A stretch of 64,000 nucleotides of DNA from Trogon surrucura (taxonomy: Eukaryota; Chordata; Aves; Trogoniformes; Trogonidae). The stretch lies in assembly GCA_020746105.1 (NCBI GenBank), contig CM036617.1, positions 134,443,845 through 134,507,844 of the forward strand, written 5' to 3'. Of the stretch, positions 7,901-61,965 are shown piece after piece (within the stretch, counting starts at the first letter, position 1; every line of letters begins with the position of its first letter). The notes under the pieces are model-generated. The model was given only the letters and a program-made list of their open reading frames with translations, was not told the DNA's origin and searched no databases. The position numbers were made by a program, and so were the translations under genes.

Positions 7901-10900
7901 AAAGGGCTAGTAGAACCAGGGAAAAGCCTGGAATGGGTTGGAAGGAATGAAAAGAAACAGAGATTTCAAACCAAACACTGGCACGTATTTTTCTGATGTA
8001 ATTTACCTCTTTCCATAACAGCTGTAGTCTTCCATGTATGTCTGGTAGATTTGTTTACTGCCGTTGTCAGAATCCCATGGATTCACCTCTGCTTCTCTAG
8101 TTTTGCCCTGTAAAGCTTGTCCAAAGAGTTGACAGTTTAATTTGCTCTTTTGTTTCACTTTATCATAGAGAAGGTCTGGTTGAAGCCCTATGTAGACCTG
8201 CAGCCATATGATGATCCCAGCAGAGGGGTGCTGGAATTCACTAAGGAACTGGATGTCTCTTGCGTCACTATGGAGAATGTGATTGGAGAGGGTGAGTTAC
8301 TTGTCTCTCTCCCCGTCTTTCAGTTCCTCCACACTGTTATTTTGCTGCCTGTCCCTGAGTTTCTCTCTGACCTTTTATGTCTGATTGTCCTCAGGGGAGT
8401 TTGGGGAGGTCTATCGTGGGTCCCTGCGGCTCCCAGGAAAAGAACGTATTGTGGTTGCCATCAAAACCTTGAAGTCAACGTATTCAGACTCACAGTGGTG
8501 GAACTTTCTGCGTGAGGCAACAATTATGGGGCAATTCAATCACCCGAACATTGTGCGTCTGGAAGGAGTTGTCACCAAAAGTAAGAGTGTGTGGGAGAGA
8601 GTCCTGGAATGAGAGCAAAAACTGGCACGTTTCTCAGGCCTTACTTTGAGAGGATGCTGTCGGAAAGGCTGTGCTGAGAGAAGACAGGTATTGTCATGTT
8701 AGTCTATGGCAGAGAATGGAGAGATGTGGATTTCCAACAGAGAGATGAGGCAATGTTAGGAGAGGTCTTCTTGAGTTGGTGAGTGGATGAGAAGTTGAGA
8801 CAGGGTAAGGGATGCTGTAAGGTTGTATGTGTGACACAAGGAGGAATACAAAATCATCAGGGGAGATCTAAGAAAAAAGGTCAGCCAGCTGTGCCAGTGG
8901 AGTGAGGATGTTGGCTGGGGTTCTCTGTGTTTGGGCAGTGTGGAGAGTGTTGAAAGGCAAGAGTAAGAGAATTTTAAAAAACCTGACACCTTCTTGTCTT
9001 CCTCAAGGGAGGCCAATGATGATCATCACTGAGTATATGGAGAATGGGGCGCTGGATACCTTCCTCCGGGTGAGAGACTCCAATCTGTAGTAGGCTTGTG
9101 TACTGCCAGAACTTGCACTTCACCTTGATTTAGGACCCTAAAAGAAGGCTAGATCTAGACATCCACTTGCCTTCTGTTCACTGCCATTTGCAGTTTCAGC
9201 AGTTGAAGCTTGATGCCATCCAGTTTGTTCAGTGCTCAGAGTGCTGTCTTTGGTAATTGGAGTGCAGGTGCCTAGTGATGAATCTGGAGACCAGCACTGG
9301 TCCCTTAATGAGGACCTGTTGGATGCTTTGGGCTGCAGCATTGCCCTTTTGCTTGCTCATCAATGCCCACTTTTGCAAGTTGATAGTAACTAGAAACTAA
9401 GCATGCTGATGTCACTTGACCAGGATTTTCTCTCACTTGTTTTTGCATGCAGGAGAATGAGGAAAAATTTAGCCCTGTGCAGCTTGTCAGCATGCTGCAG
9501 GGAATAGCTTCTGGCATGACCTACCTCTCAGAGCACAACTATGTGCACCGGGATCTGGCTGCTCGCAACATTCTGGTAACACGCAGTCTTCAGTGCAAGG
9601 TTTCTGACTTTGGTCTCTCCCGAATATTGGAGAATGATGCGGAGGGGACCTATGAAACCAAGGTAATGCAAAACCAATCTCTCAGTCTTGGAAATTAACT
9701 ATAGTCCCAGGGGGATTTGGGTTCTGCCAGACAAGAATGACAGAGTTTCTTCACAATAGGAAATACCACACCAGGGGAAGATTTGGGTGGAAAATCTCTG
9801 AGCGAAACCCCTATTAAAATGGCAAGTCACCACATGGATGTTTCAGAAGGTTGTACTCTTCTTTCTGGAGTCCACATTGATTTAGTTTGCTAAGATAGTG
9901 AGAAGGATTGTGGTTTTGAAATGAGAAGAGAAATAAGAGGTCTGATCTTTTGGACTCGATTAACTAAATCTGGCTTTGAAGAGAGCCCTGCTAGTTTGGA
10001 CTAGAGACGGCTACAGGTCCCTTTCAATGAAATTGCCAGTGATTCTAGTATCTGGCATCATTCAAAGTAGGGCTATGACCCATGTCAGTCTCATTCCCAC
10101 AGCAGTGGTTTTGTGTAACATTCGACTGAACAGAAGGCTTAAATTCATGCACTTTACAAGAATGTTTCTGTCCTTTTGAGAAATTTCCCCAGAGGTGGTT
10201 TTTCATCTCTTCAAGTGAAGTGGGCTCAGTCTTTGAACAACTTTGTAAGCTACTCGCATGAAAGCACTGGACAAATAAATGCACTATGTCTCTGCTTTTT
10301 CATAGGGTGGTAAGATTCCCATCCGATGGACAGCCCCAGAAGCCATTGCTCATCGTATTTTCACATCAGCCAGTGATGTCTGGAGCTTTGGAATTGTCAT
10401 GTGGGAGGTGCTGTCATTTGGTGACAAGCCATATGGGAACATGTCCAATCAAGAGGTAATGACACTGAGCTCAAGTGCTGATATACAAAAGTAAACAAGG
10501 CATGCCTAACTTTTGTAGATCTCCTTCAGCCTGCAATCTTGACATTGGTTTGAACACAGGTCTCCCCTCCCTGCCAAAAGTCAATGCAATTAAGTCAAGG
10601 GCAATGAGTGTTTGGGCCTTTGAACCATGTTCAGGTGTCAACAGCGATTAGTCAAATTAAAGACTGGTTAAATTAGCCCTGGCCTTTGGGTCTGGAGATG
10701 TACTCTGTTGGCTTCTTTCTCTCCTTTCTCTGGCTCTGGAGTATTATATCTGGTCTCATTCTAGGTTCAGCCCATTTGTGAGGTTAGCACATCATCATCA
10801 TCATCATCATGGCTAAGCTTTGCAAACGAAGATATGGGAAGGGCTCTACCCACACTTGCTACAAGCGCGCTGACGGCTACAAAGGCCGATGCAGGATAGG

Positions 10901-13900
10901 CAAGTCCAGTTGCAAAAGGCACAGTGGAAAGTCTCCTTAGGCAGTATTGACGAGGCACGGTTCTTTCTGCGTTGTCTTTTCTCCTCGAGACTAATTCTAC
11001 ATGCGTTCTCAAAGGAGGCAGCAGCGTTCTGGATGGTGTGTCTCCACGTCTGCCAATTGGAGGCCAGAGTGGACCACTGATGGTAGTTAATATGGCCAAA
11101 GCTGAGGTATTGTGTCAGAGAGTCCTTGTATCTCCTCTTTGGGGCTCCTCTGTTGCAGCAGCCGGCGGCAAGTTCACCATAGAGCACAACCTTAGGGAGG
11201 CAGTGATCCTCCATCCTGGAGACGTGACCTGCCCAGCACAGCTGCGTCCTCAGCACCACGGCCTCAGTACTGGTGACCCCTGCCTGTTCAGGGACAGTGA
11301 CATTAGTCACATAGTCAGTCCAGTGGATGTTTAGGGTTGCACAGAGGCAGCGCTGATGGAAGCGTTCGAGGAGTCGCAGGTGGTGGCAGTAGATAACCCA
11401 TGATTCAGACCCATATGAAAGAGTAGACAGTACAATGGCTCTGTAGACACTGATCTTTGTACTTTTCTTCAGGTGTTTATTGCACAGACTCTTTTATGGA
11501 GTTTTCCAAAAGCTCTGTATGCCTTTGCTAATCTGTTGTCTATCTCTTTGTCAATCTTACCATCTGAGGAAATGATACTTCCTAGATAGTTGAACTGCTG
11601 GACTGACTTAAGCTCTGATTTGCCTATGGTGATGTGGGGATGATGGGAGACTTCCTGAGGTGCAGGCTGGTACAGAACTTCTGTCTTCTTCAAGCTGACC
11701 TCCAGCCCGAAAACCTCGGCAGCCTCTGCAAAGCAGGATGTTAAGCGCTGCAGAGCAGCGTGTGTGAGCAACGAGGGCGGCATCATCAGCAAAAAGCAGC
11801 TCACGGACAAGGTGATTTAGGGTCTTAGTGTGGGCCTTCAGCCACTTTATGTTGAATAGGTTACCATCGGTACGACAACGGATGTAAATGCCGTTATCTT
11901 CATTGAGGTCTGCCATGGCCCTTTGGAGCATCATGCTGAAGAAGATTGTGAATAGAGTTGGTGCGAGAACGCAACCTTGTTTCACACCATTGGTTATTGA
12001 GAAGGGCTCAGAGAGTGCGTCACCATATGCATTGCCATATATCGGCCACGCTGATCCTTGTGTAACAGGATAATCATTCTGAGGAACTTGGGAGGACATC
12101 CTAGTTGTTCCAAGATCTGCCACAGGCCTTTTCTGCTCACAGTGTCAAAAGCTTTGGTGAGGTCAACGAAAACTACATAGAGTTCTTTGTTCTGTTTTCT
12201 ACACTTCTCTTGCAGTTGTCTGAGAACAAATACCATGTCTGTGGTACTCCTGTTGGCTCTGAAACCACATTGGCTTTCAGGTGGAAGTTCTTCTGAGAGA
12301 GCTGGTACTAGTCTGTTCAAAAGTATTCTTGCAAGGATGTTTACCAGCAATAGAGAGCAAAGTAATTTGAACAGTCTGATTTTTCTCCTTTCTTCTTGTA
12401 CAGGGTTAGCACATACTGTTGAAATTATTCCTTAGAGTCTGATTCCCCTTTTCTCACCAGTCCTGTGCCAGGATTATTTGAGCACATGATATGAATGGCA
12501 AATGTGAGCTAACCTAATAAAGGATTGAAAGTATGTGCATATTCCACTTCACTTTTTTGACATCCCTTAGGTGTCCTGATCCTTTGCTTTGCTGCCCAAA
12601 CCCTGCTTCATACATGTGTCGTCTGCTTCAAAACCCCTCTGTCTGCACACTGTGAACTGCCTGCTTCCAGAGATCTCTGGCTCTTCTTTTGCACTCTCTG
12701 CTCTTGTCCAGAATTCTCTGTCCTCTGTGCAGGTGATGAAAAGCTTAGAGGATGGGTACCGGCTTCCCCCACCTGTGGACTGTCCGTCTATCCTCTATGA
12801 ACTCATGAAGAGCTGTTGGTCACATGATCGGATAAGGAGGCCTCATTTTCAGGAAATACGGGCACAGCTGCAACATTTCATCTCGAGTCCCCACCTTCTC
12901 CGGCCTGTTGCAGACTTTGATCCCAGGTAAGCAGGCTATCACTGGAGGAGGTTAACTGGAAGATTTTCACCTTCCTGTCTCCAGCAGGAGGAGAAGTAGT
13001 GCTAGCAATGCAGGCTGGCAAGAGGCACCTTGAGTGCTCTATGTGCAGAAGACAGTGGACATCTACGGAGGCCCCATCCCCGGAGATATTCGAGGTTGGG
13101 CTTGATGGAGCTCTGAGCAACCTGATCTAGTTAAAGATGTCCCTGCCTACTGCAGAGGGTTGAACTAGATGGCCTTTAAAGGTCCCTTCCAACCCGACAC
13201 ATTCTATGATCTCTCTCTCATGGTGTCAAAGGGCATAGCCATTGGCCTGGGCAGAGAGCAGAAAAATTGGCCTAGTCCTGGCAGAGGGTGTTTGTCCTCT
13301 AGCTACCATCTCATATTACTGGTTAAGGTAGTTGGCTGGCTAATGAGGGTTTTATGTGTCTTTAGGGTAACACTCCGGCTCCCCAGCTGCAGTGGATCTG
13401 ATGGGATCCCCTATCGATCCATCCCTGAGTGGCTGGAATCCATTCGCATGAAACGCTACATCTCCAACTTTCGCACTGCTGGCCTGGACACGATGGAGTC
13501 TATTCTGGAGCTCACTGCTGAGTAAGGGCAGGCTAAGCTTCCACAGGGCACAGCAAGCTATGCTCATATAGCTGTGTCTGGCCCTGTGCTATCTGAAAAA
13601 GCACTCATACTTACCTGGAAGGCTTCTCTCCATCCATCTCTATAACATTAAATGGAAGTGGTCTGGCTTCTTGTCTTAAAAGGGAAGAATAAGTCCAGGA
13701 GAGCTGGGATCAGCCCAGACTGTGAGACTAATTCCCTGACTGTCCATGCTTGAGGCTCTCAGAGGCCTGAGCTGCTCTGAACTCGTATCAAACACAAGCA
13801 GCAAGGGGAAACAATAGATGGCAGACAGTTCTCTGACCATCTCCCCATGCTTGTAGGACTTCACAAGATAATTTTCTTGCCTTGAACCCCACATGGGCTA

Positions 13901-16550: not shown

Positions 16551-18303
16551 AATCACAGAATCACAGAAGCACAGAATGTCAGGGATTGGAAGGGACCTCG
16601 AAAGATCATCAAGTCCAATCCCCCTGCCATAGCAGGAACGCCCAGATAATGCTACATAGGAACGTGTCCAGGCAGGTCTTGAATGTCTCCAGAGAAGGAG
16701 ACTCCACGACCTCCCTGGGCAGCCTCTTCCAGTGTTCCGTCACCCTCACTGAGAAGTTTCTTCTCAAGTTTAAGCGGAACCTCTTATGTTCCACTTTCAG
16801 CCCATTACCCCTTGTCCTATCATTGGTTGTCACCGAGGAGAGCCTGGCTCCATCCTCGTGACACTCACCCTTGATATATTTGTAAACATTAATGAGGTCA
16901 CCCCTCAGTCTCCTCTTCTCCAAACTAAAGAGCCCCAGCTCCCTCAGCCTTTCCTCATAAGGGAGATGCTCCACTCCCTTAATCATCCTAGTTGCCCTGG
17001 GCTGGACTCTCTCCAGCAGTTCCCTGTCTTTCTTGAACTGAGGGGCCCAGAACTGGACACAATATTCCAGATGGGGTCTCACCAGGGCAGAGTAGAGGGG
17101 AAGGAGAACCTCTCTTGACCTACTAACCACCCCCCTTCTAATACACCCCAGGATGCCATTGGCCTTCCTGGCCACAAGGTCACAGTGCTGGCTCATGGTC
17201 ATCCTGCTGTCCACCAAGACTCCCAGGTCCCTTTCCCCTACACTGCTCTCTAGTAAGTCATTCCCCAGCTTATACTGGAACCTGGGGTTGTTCCTACCCA
17301 GATGCAAGACTCTACCTTTACCCTTGTTATACTTCATTAAATTTTTCCCCGCCCAACTCTCCAGCCTGTCCCGGTCTCTCTGAATGGCAGCACAGCCTTC
17401 TGGTGTGTCAGCCACTCCTCCCAGCTTGGTGTCATCAGCAAACTTGCTGATAGTACTCTCCAGTCCCTCATCCAAGTCATCAATGAATATATTGAATAAT
17501 ACTGGTCCCAGTACCAACCCTTGAGGGACTCCACTGGATACAGGCCTCCAACCAGACTCCGCCCCATTGACCACAACTCTTTGGCTTCTTCCCCTTAGCC
17601 AGTTCACAGTCCACCTCACTACCTGAGAGTCTAGACCACACTTCCTCAGCTCAGCAGCAAGGATGCTGTGGGAGACTGTGTCAAATGCTTTACTGAAGTC
17701 AAGGTAGACCACATCCACCGCTCTGCCATCATCTATCCACCTTGTTATATCCTTGTAAAAGGCTATGAGGTTAGCCAAGCACGACTTCCCCTTGGTGAAG
17801 CCATGTTGACTGTCTCTAATGACCCTCTTATCCTTGATATGCCTTGAGATGGCACCAAGGATAAGTCGTTCCATCACTTTCCCAGGGATGGAGGTGAGGC
17901 TGACCGGTCTATAGTTTCCCGGGTCCTCCTTCTTGCCCTTTTTGAAGACTGGAGTGACATTTGCTTCCCTCCAGTCCTCAGGCACCTCTCCCGTCTCCCA
18001 AGACTTGGCAAAGATGATGGAGAGTGGTCCAGCAATGACATCAGCCAGCTCCCTCAGCACCCGTGGATGCATCCCGTCTGGACCCATGGATTTATGGATG
18101 TCCAGATTGCTTAATTGGTCCCTAACCCAGTCCTCATCGACTAAAGCAAACTCCTCCACTGCCCTGACTTCCTGTGGGGCCTCAGGGGAACAGGGCTCCT
18201 CAGGACAGCCTCCGACAGAGTAGACAGAGACAAAGAAGGCATTCAGTAACTCTGCCTTCTCTGTATCTTCTGTCACCAATGCGCCCTTGTAGCAAAGGAG
18301 GCC
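16551..18303 (-). mobile_element. CR1 LINE, 5'-truncated, with open ORF2 segment
   Basis: The minus-strand copy ends at low coordinates with the CR1 3' repeat (AATCACAGAATCACAGAA on the plus strand) followed by GGATTGGAAGGGACCTCGAA. The upstream end is truncated within ORF2 near 18303. Because the reading frame is undamaged this is probably a young insertion. It sits between the 3' ends of EPHA1 and ZYX. Confidence 0.93.
16609..18279 (-). CDS. CR1 ORF2 fragment: reverse transcriptase and C-terminal region, 556 codons open
   Basis: This is a single open frame of 556 codons within the 5'-truncated CR1. It carries RT motifs in order: [69 protein letters not shown], and the catalytic FADDTKLGG. 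After these comes the usual CR1 C-terminal region ([33 protein letters not shown]). The endonuclease and ORF1 are missing, so it cannot mobilise on its own. The first in-frame ATG is at 18279, but that codon is internal to the family's ORF2, so translation from it is unlikely to be meaningful. Confidence 0.88.
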
Positions 18304-18334
18304 AACAGCATCAGAGCTACTTTAGCAAATGCAT

Positions 18335-60779: not shown

Positions 60780-61965
60780 ACTAGTTGCAAATGAGGAGGG
60801 GGATAGCAATATCAGGCTTGTCTGTGACAAGCTGTGGGATGACACACCAGAGTTACAGGGACAGAGTGCTACTAAAGGCCTTCAAGCGATTACTCTGTGG
60901 TGAGCTGGGGATGCAGCAGCACAGTTAAAGTCTCGCAGAGATGAACCACGGGCTCCTGAGGTAGTAGGACCCAACAGGGAAACATCTACAGAACACCTCG
61001 AGAGAATTAAGGGATGTTCCACCAAGAAGGTGACATCGCTGACAGCCCAGCTGAAGTGCCTCTACATGAATACACACAGCATGGGCAACAAACAGGAAGA
61101 GTTAGAAATCTGCATGCAGTCAAGGAGTGATGATCTGGTGGCAAATAAAGAGACATGGTGGGACAGCTCACGTGACTGGAATGTGGTCCTTGATGGCTCT
61201 GTCCTTTTTAGGAAAGATCGGCCAACAAAGCGAGGTGGTGGAGTTGCTCTGTATGTGAGAGCAACTGGAATGTGTCGAGTTCTGTCCAGGGATGGATGAG
61301 GAGCGAGTTGAGAGTTTGTGGGTGAGAATTACAGGGCAGGCTAGCACAGGTGATACTGTGGTGGGTGTCTATTACAGACCACCTGATCAGGAGGAGGAAG
61401 TTGATGAGGCCTTTTACAGGCAGCTGTCAGCAGCCTCTCAATCACAGGTCCTGGTTCTCATGGGAGATTTCAACTACCCAGATATTTGCTGGAAGGCCCA
61501 CACAACCAGCCATCCTCAGTCCAGGAGGTTGCTCCAGTGCATCGATGATAATTTCTTCATGCAAATGGTGAATGAGCCAACCAGGAGAGGAACACTGCTG
61601 GATCTTGTACTCACCAACAAGGAAGGTCTGGTTGAAGCAGTGAAGACTGAGGGCAGCCTTGGCTGCAGCAACCATGAGGTGGTGGAGTTCATGATCTTGT
61701 GTCATAGGAACACAATACCAAGCAAGATCACAACCCTGGACTTCAGCAGGGCCAACTTTGGCCTTTTTAATCAATTGCCAGGGGAAATCCCATGAGACAG
61801 GGTGTTAGAAGGTAAAGGGGTCCAAGATAGTTGGTTGGTGTTCAAGGACCACTTCTTTGAGGCTCAGGATCAGTGCATCCCATCAGGTAGGAAATCAAGA
61901 AAGAGATCCAGGAGACCTGCATGGTTAACCAGGGATCTGCTGGGCAGACTCAGGTGGAAGGAGAG
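60780..61965 (+). mobile_element. CR1 LINE, endonuclease part of ORF2, lacking the reverse transcriptase
   Basis: The start of CR1 ORF2 is recognisable: LKCLYMNTHSMGNKQEEL, ETWWDSSRDWNVVLDG, KRGGGVALYVRA, ESLWVRITG, VVGVYYRPPDQEEEVDEAF, LMGDFNYPDICW and RRGTLLDLVLTNKEGLV. The frame shifts once near 61295 and meets a TGA near 61794 (expected Trp in the segment PWDRV). The SDH catalytic motif of this endonuclease family reads SNH (CSNHEVVEF). Similarity ends near 61965 in RSRRPAWLTRDLL, before any RT motif. The upstream 0.2 kb may be ORF1-ORF2 junction sequence. Confidence 0.85.

Follow-up and report, generated by a model that had tools for sequence, protein, structure and literature searches.

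The window analysed here, a stretch of 64,000 nucleotides from Trogon surrucura (GCA_020746105.1, contig CM036617.1), contains at positions 10793-12403, on the minus strand, 1.6 kb from the 3' end of an RTE-type LINE. This copy is very probably a 5'-truncated AviRTE (the last ~1.6 of ~4.0 kb), inserted antisense into an EPHA1 intron. Its sister copies elsewhere in the genome suggest that AviRTE chooses where to insert by a signal resembling the one followed by distantly related elements of lizards, cattle and plants.

Insertion site and anatomy of the element

The element lies antisense within an EPHA1-like gene, in an intron between two plus-strand exons that match Eph-receptor kinases. For the upstream exon (10306..10455) the top match is a chain labelled EGFR (9p9u), followed by many Eph receptors; in the downstream exon (12733..12926), positions 12733-12924 match EPHA2 best. 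The name EPHA1 is given because the best match of the SAM exon, further downstream, is EPHA1. The first-pass annotation, made from the sequence alone, had placed the element in an EPHA1 intron, and its placement holds at the level of an EPHA1-like gene; its coordinates for the element were exact.

Both flanks carry a perfect 11-bp target-site duplication (TSD), GGTTAGCACAT, at 10782..10792 beside the 3' tail of the element and at 12404..12414 at its truncated 5' end. The same word occurs nowhere else in the window, even when one mismatch is allowed, and under random placement a repeat of at least 11 bp abutted an insert of similar size in 1 of 4000 trials (slack 150 bp). Read on the minus strand, the element consists of the 3' part of the AviRTE ORF (10846..12403), which runs from within the reverse transcriptase (RT) domain to the stop codon and carries five private indels, a short 3' UTR of 35 nt (10811..10845) that spans part of the site of primer 4R, and an (ATG)6 tail (10793..10810), which reads (CAT)6 on the plus strand. 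Thus both the perfect duplication and the (ATG)n tail described in the first-pass annotation are present. A search of the window for a second AviRTE-like tail gave one extra match with 3 mismatches, which is within chance. Next to the truncated end, the element strand shows a Tn-TA-like context (12415..12424, minus strand), with T at -1 (12415), a TSD that starts with A, and TTT at -10..-8 (12422-12424).

Reverse transcriptase domain and clade

The RT domain was recognized by the Pfam model RVT_1 in two frame pieces, with E=5.2e-14 and 3.9e-5, the second being below the Pfam cut-off. RVT_1 was the only credible model among those matched to the element pieces, and none of the models separates RTE from CR1; no Pfam model matches the C-terminal region, which contains what we take to be an RTE-type motif. 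In the PDB, most relatives of the RT piece are R2 and L1 proteins; they leave the clade unsettled. No RTE relative was found in viral contigs scanned with two window peptides, nor in viral and prokaryote contigs scanned with a degenerate RT motif.

The dominant LINE of birds is CR1, and a CR1 copy might be mistaken for an RTE element, the more readily here in that an ORF close by (16609-18321), presumably CR1-like, also belongs to a non-LTR retrotransposon with an RVT_1 domain. Within part of the RT, however, the two sequences are only 23% identical (98 aa), in agreement with the earlier remark that the RT motifs are unlike those of CR1, and the C-terminal domain of the element has no meaningful match to that ORF (E=0.078). 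The 3' end of CR1 is unlike (ATG)n. The low identity, the (ATG)n tail, the clear TSD and the AviRTE primer sites described below exclude CR1 identity, the likelihood of which we consider negligible.

Assignment to AviRTE

The published primers for AviRTE (Gymnopithys AviRTE) served as the test of identity in place of a consensus alignment, and family identity was judged from 205 published primer bases and the size of the element rather than from an alignment or a tree. All three primer sites expected in the window copy are present and in order (3R, 4F, 4R): 3R at 11813-11833 (20/21 bases matching), 4F at 11839-11860 (17/22) and 4R at 10803-10821 (16/19). The other seven primers, which belong further 5', match nothing in the window better than expected by chance, which is what 5' truncation predicts.

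Primer searches covered 13 loci (L009-L021) in one test and six in another. Four sister copies of ~4.0 kb (L012, L016, L018 and L021) contain all ten primers in the published order, with 183-187 of the 205 bases matching (89-91% primer-site identity). In each of the four, primer 1F matches weakly (12-14/18), and in L018 it ties with an unrelated place; intR is weak in L012 (14/19); and the 5'-UTR primer intF matches at 19-20 of 21 bases. In the 13-locus test the primers were also in order in L019, and the remaining loci lack the 5' primers because they are truncated. L069 lacks 1F, and L050 lacks 4F and 3R owing to an internal deletion. The 5'-UTR amplicon measures 126 bp in L016, L018, L021 and L050, 127 bp in L069 and 128 bp in L012. 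These copies indicate that the host genome carries full-length AviRTE, and the proposal of an AviRTE-like element of the RTE clade is supported by the three ordered sites in the window and the ten in each of the four long copies.

In the AviRTE study of Suh et al. (2016; PMC4844689), the published layout comprises a 5' UTR of ~0.8 kb, 3.2 kb and a 3' UTR of ~40 bp, with a 5'-UTR amplicon of 126 bp and 141-8,306 copies per bird. A first look at the present genome gave 836 AviRTE candidates, 40 of which were scored. This genome, of bird type and 1.17 Gb in size, contains CR1-like LINEs and, on C67, three DM hits inside 100 kb. The copies described here resemble the published family in full length (~4.0 kb), primer order, amplicon, short 3' UTR and low divergence. 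TSD size is also similar, a 13-bp TSD in an intron being reported in that paper. A further likeness is that no fully open long frame was seen among the copies fetched here, the longest open stretch being 660 codons. The window copy differs from the published elements in being 5'-truncated and degraded. Two or more ATG/GTG units end 63 of 65 copies. The 5' 793 bases of L016, used as a query with 40 of 172 candidates scored, matched long LINEs and, next to these, three short pieces, and nothing else; no AviRTE-driven SINE was seen among them.

The element might instead be a vertically inherited RTE of archosaur or turtle type, related to AviRTE and distinct from it. The primer matches are imperfect, the same study groups AviRTE within the RTEs of crocodilians, turtles and aquatic animals, and close crocodilian and turtle relatives might share some primer sites. 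Yet intF matches at nearly every base and the amplicon is exactly 126 bp in three of the four full copies, while primer-site identity falls inside the 83-99% published for AviRTE subfamilies. Moreover, sister copies differ by a mean of only 7.7% (K2P), and the tree of 65 copies is nearly star-like; in this sample, which leans toward well-preserved copies, the family looks far too young for inheritance from before the birds. An old vertical RTE was accordingly rejected on low divergence, tree shape and AviRTE primer sites, and we hold it to be very improbable. For AviRTE itself, horizontal entry into bird lineages (seven published), involving nematodes, is reported in PMC4844689, and the window copy, as an AviRTE, would likewise trace to horizontal transfer.

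Age and decay of the window copy

The window copy is a broken, fairly young AviRTE. It differs from its sister copies by 6.2-10.1%, and its own divergence amounts to ~2-4%, in a copy sample that leans toward well-preserved copies. Its reading frame is broken by five private indels: four are common to none of 24 long copies, and the fifth is listed for six of the 24, in all of which the alignment starts at or past it. At 2-4% divergence, the probability of a perfect 11-bp TSD is 0.64-0.41. The combination of a perfect duplication and a lost reading frame had previously been read as a mixed age signal; with private lesions and a divergence of ~2-4% there is no such conflict, and that reading was rejected.

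The intronic position in a receptor gene raises the question of co-option, in which the copy might, for instance, regulate EPHA1 as an antisense element and not be a neutral relic. Against this, the copy has accumulated its five private lesions within 1.6 kb and occupies an ordinary terminal branch among the 65 copies. A functional EPHA1 element was rejected on these two grounds and is very unlikely; the window copy probably has no present function.

Target-site signature of AviRTE

TSDs were called over 64 sister copies with the exact-match version of the procedure at score 7, which identified them in 24 copies and left 40 without; at the stricter score of 8.5, 46 of the 64 were without a TSD. 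The null gave 8/1286 at score 7 (exact-match version) and 0/386 at score 8.5, and ~0.4 false sites are therefore expected among 64 copies. A further 21 newer places were left out of the counts, among them L073, which was aligned.

A T|A cut is found in 18 of the 24 sister copies with a TSD, compared with a background of 7% and 10/55 in a mispaired control. Upstream, T occupies 72 of 120 positions at -13..-9 (32% background), and TTT occurs within -14..-7 in 15/24 copies (background 17%). Both of these intervals were chosen with the sites of the two sample halves already in view, and the halves at -13..-9 therefore test consistency and do not amount to a blind replication. A rule formulated before the sister copies were examined, TTT inside -12..-7, gave 6/24 (background 13%); T|A together with TTT by this rule occurs in 5/24 copies (2/13 and 3/11 by halves), as against a background of 0.9% (P about 2e-6) and 3/55 mispaired sites. 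The window site also has T|A with TTT upstream, a rule that fits 0.43% of window positions. The T|A cut is thus clear and the T-run upstream is enriched, much like the RTE "Tn-TA" signature.

This signature was defined in a 2026 paper on BovB (PMC13295347), which states that the RTE LINE signature in birds "remains to be elucidated" and suspects Tn-TA to be common to most RTE LINEs; the present result therefore meets a stated expectation. BovB of squamates and ruminants shares with AviRTE the RTE clade, a TSD that starts with A and is preceded by T, and a T-run at a distance of roughly one helical turn upstream, the last being a likeness of approximate distance only, with the peak here at ~-13..-9. 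The BovB tails are (CAA)n or (CTGAA)n, whereas here the tail is (ATG)n, and the sequences are distantly related. The parts of PMC4844689 used here mention no target-site motif.

The window copy probably arose by target-primed reverse transcription. The element endonuclease would nick the plus strand immediately after ...GGTTAGCACAT; on the element strand this point is a T|A step ~10 nt downstream of the TTT, and the T-run presumably has a role in the choice of site. The freed 3' end, ...CAT, would base-pair with the (AUG)n repeat that ends the element RNA and prime cDNA synthesis. This would halt prematurely, and the 11-bp duplication would result when the staggered break was repaired. The copy then decayed, its frame being lost through the five private indels.

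Significance

The window copy itself is unremarkable within a known family with a history of horizontal transfer, and it can serve as a presence/absence marker. We would give even odds to the broader proposal that AviRTE brings a target-site code of its own to each new host, consisting of a T|A cut and, roughly one helical turn upstream, a T-run. Target choice in RTEs would then be element-encoded and, as with BovB and the RTEs of plants, would survive horizontal transfer across birds and nematodes; the present host may also lie outside the seven published bird carriers. The result supports the idea of an integration machinery that moves together with the element and has been conserved across the RTE clade.

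Structure of the element and its host gene

Two exact copies of GGTTAGCACAT flank an insert at 10793-12403; the exact flanking repeat and the (ATG)n tail noted at first pass for the whole feature (10782-12414) were both confirmed. Even with one mismatch allowed, the window holds no copy beyond the flanking pair, and when an insert of equal length was placed at random 4000 times (slack 150 bases), a repeat of at least 11 bases turned up only once. On the minus strand the insert codes for a fragmented reverse transcriptase (RT), one piece matching RVT_1 at E=5.2e-14 and a second at E=3.9e-5, which fails Pfam's cut-off; its 3' end consists of a stop codon, a 3' UTR of 35 nt and (ATG)6. The RT is indeed unlike CR1: BLASTP against the CR1-like ORF of the window gave just 23% identity over 98 residues of RT and no useful match for the C-terminal part. 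That ORF (16609-18321, minus strand; 570 codons spanning the RT; RVT_1 E=1.7e-30) has survived in a much more intact state than the AviRTE copy. An overlapping ORF pair on the plus strand at 60904-61795, the second member of which (61259-61795) contains an Exo_endo_phos_2 endonuclease domain, probably represents the 5' portion of a LINE.

The insert is antisense to its gene, and the GT and AG ends of the surrounding intron are intact. Its assignment to an intron of an EPHA1-like gene is upheld by the SAM exon (13.4-13.5 kb), which matches EPHA1 best (7.9e-16, with EPHA2 second at 1.4e-12), and by the adjoining exons, which match Eph receptors. The exon 3' of the insert (searched span 12733-12924) has EPHA2 as its top match, followed by other Eph receptors; for the exon 5' of it (10306-10455) the top match is a chain labelled EGFR (9p9u, E=4e-34), followed by many Eph receptors from E=2.6e-24. 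Minus-strand LIM exons near 23 kb have TRIP6 as top match and, judged by neighbourhood, probably belong to ZYX.

Family identity and genomic copies

The genome (1,165,559,148 bases in 164 contigs) yielded 836 first-look candidates for the element, 40 of which were scored. We retrieved 64 sister copies, 39 from one search and 25 from a second, making 65 with the window copy. As family probes, in place of an AviRTE consensus, we used the primers published by Suh et al. 2016 (PMC4844689). Three of the ten (3R, 4F and 4R) are located in the last 1.6 kb of AviRTE, and these match the window copy at 20/21, 17/22 and 16/19 bases, in correct order and orientation; for each of them, 0 of 300 shuffled primers equalled the real match within the element. 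The remaining seven have no above-chance match anywhere in the window, as expected because the window copy is 5'-truncated.

Primer probing covered 13 of the 65 copies in one round and six in another. Four sister copies (L012, L016, L018 and L021) contain all ten primers, ordered as in that paper and identical at 183-187 of 205 bases, 1F being weak in all four (12-14/18, and equalled by another place in L018) and intR in L012 (14/19). The spacing from intF to intR is 126 bp in three of them and 128 in L012, the published amplicon being 126 bp (PMC4844689). The primers of L019 are likewise in order, and single primers are missing from L069 and L050. Full-length copies in this genome measure about 4.0 kb, compared with a published 0.8 + 3.2 + 0.04 kb (PMC4844689), and at least two ATG/GTG units form the 3' terminus in 63 of the 65 copies. 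Judged by primer sites and element size, the window copy is a member of the known family AviRTE; the horizontal transfer of that family is a claim of PMC4844689, taken from there.

Among the best-scored places listed, contigs C60, C61 and C62 (16.1 Mb, 1.4% of the genome) carry 10 of the 65 copies, and the 40 best-scored places for the AviRTE 5' end include nine on C60-C63 and nine on C67. Three DM-domain matches occur inside 100 kb on C67, and the DMRT cluster is Z-linked in birds; C67 is likely the Z chromosome, and C60-C63 may be pieces of the W. These DM-domain matches, together with the size of the genome and its CR1-like LINEs, are what mark the genome as bird-type. A build-up of AviRTE on the sex chromosomes of Trogon surrucura has been reported (PMC12651973).

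Three copies with an intact AviRTE 5' end then jump, in L016 element coordinates, from about 586 to 2813 (L061, C1:122.47 Mb), 129 to 2620 (L071, C61:3.65 Mb) and 160 to 2793 (L035, C10:22.96 Mb), and are thus internally deleted, with differing breakpoints. In L045 (C1:215.69 Mb) the 5' end is inverted over 116 bases, like a twin priming product. Branch length is zero within the pairs L069/L070 (C62) and L027/L034 (C61), the latter having their 3' flank in common; both pairs are probably segmental duplications or assembly doubles, and therefore not independent insertions.

Age and decay

The tree of the 65 copies, built from the last ~950 bases as available per copy, is nearly star-like. The median terminal length (three-point mean) is 3.8%, or 2.7% with CpG sites excluded, in a sample biased young since the best-scoring copies were retrieved; the window copy has 4.4% (3.1%). 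Its closest tree relative, L009 (C1:135.56 Mb), is on the same contig at a distance of 1.1 Mb, the flanks as compared having no similarity, and the window copy's own branch since that split is 2.3% (support 0.997). Comparison with 24 long copies out of the 64 shows five frame-breaking indels in the window copy (11, 1, 8, 2 and 1 bases), four of which recur in none of the 24; the 11-base gap is listed in six, each with an alignment starting at or after that place. Inspection by eye revealed no in-frame stops between the indels. The first-pass annotation had read the lost frame beside a perfect duplication as a mixed age signal. With four of the five indels private, and an 11-bp duplication expected to stay perfect with a chance of 0.64 at 2% divergence and 0.41 at 4%, the two agree, and the signal is therefore not mixed. 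The neutral rate of birds is 2-3 x 10^-9 per site per year, at which a divergence of 2.3-4.4% corresponds to roughly 8-22 million years, a figure that is only indicative.

Target-site signature

In the Tn-TA signature of BovB the target-site duplication (TSD) starts with A, is preceded by T and has three T about ten nt upstream (PMC13295347); the same source regards it as possibly common to most RTE LINEs, with birds still to be elucidated. The window copy resembles BovB in having both the T|A cut (T at -1, A at +1, element strand) and TTT at -10..-8. T|A with TTT inside -12..-7 occurs at 0.43% of window positions.

An exact TSD with a score of at least 7 was found in 24 of the 64 sister copies (40 had none at that score), compared with 8 of 1286 mispaired flanks; L069, L070, L027 and L034 are not among the 24. 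T|A is present at 18 of these sites, as against 7.1% at shifted positions and 10 of 55 false TSDs from mispaired flanks; of the 24 sites, 20 have T at -1 and 19 have A at +1. The six sites lacking T|A are L010, L012, L022, L047, L059 and L064. The T|A cut is thus firm at these sites.

Under the -12..-7 rule, set before the sister copies were seen, TTT occurs at only 6 of the 24 sites (background 13%), and together with T|A at 5 (background 0.9%, P 2e-6; false TSDs 3/55). Within -14..-7, a window chosen after the sites were seen, TTT occurs at 15 (background 17%, false TSDs 11/55) and the combination at 13 (background 1.2%, false TSDs 4/55), or 6/13 and 7/11 by copy source. At -13..-9, T makes up 72 of 120 bases versus 32% (P 3e-10, uncorrected for choice of place). 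A T-run centred near -11, looser than T|A, is therefore likely, on the sample that also set the window.

The target of the window copy reads, on the element strand, ...TTTCAACAGT|ATGTGCTAACC. Nicking of the opposite strand would free a 3' end ...CAT, which could pair with the (AUG)n tail of the element RNA. Target-primed reverse transcription with such tail-target pairing fits the junctions, and the 5' truncation of the window copy is proposed to result from an early stop of cDNA synthesis. In the limited collection of literature searched, we found no description of an AviRTE target-site motif, and PMC13295347 was the only source found on an RTE-clade target site with thymine. The window copy is a further member of a known family; the observation that takes the analysis past the first-pass annotation is that a bird-type genome shows a signature like Tn-TA.
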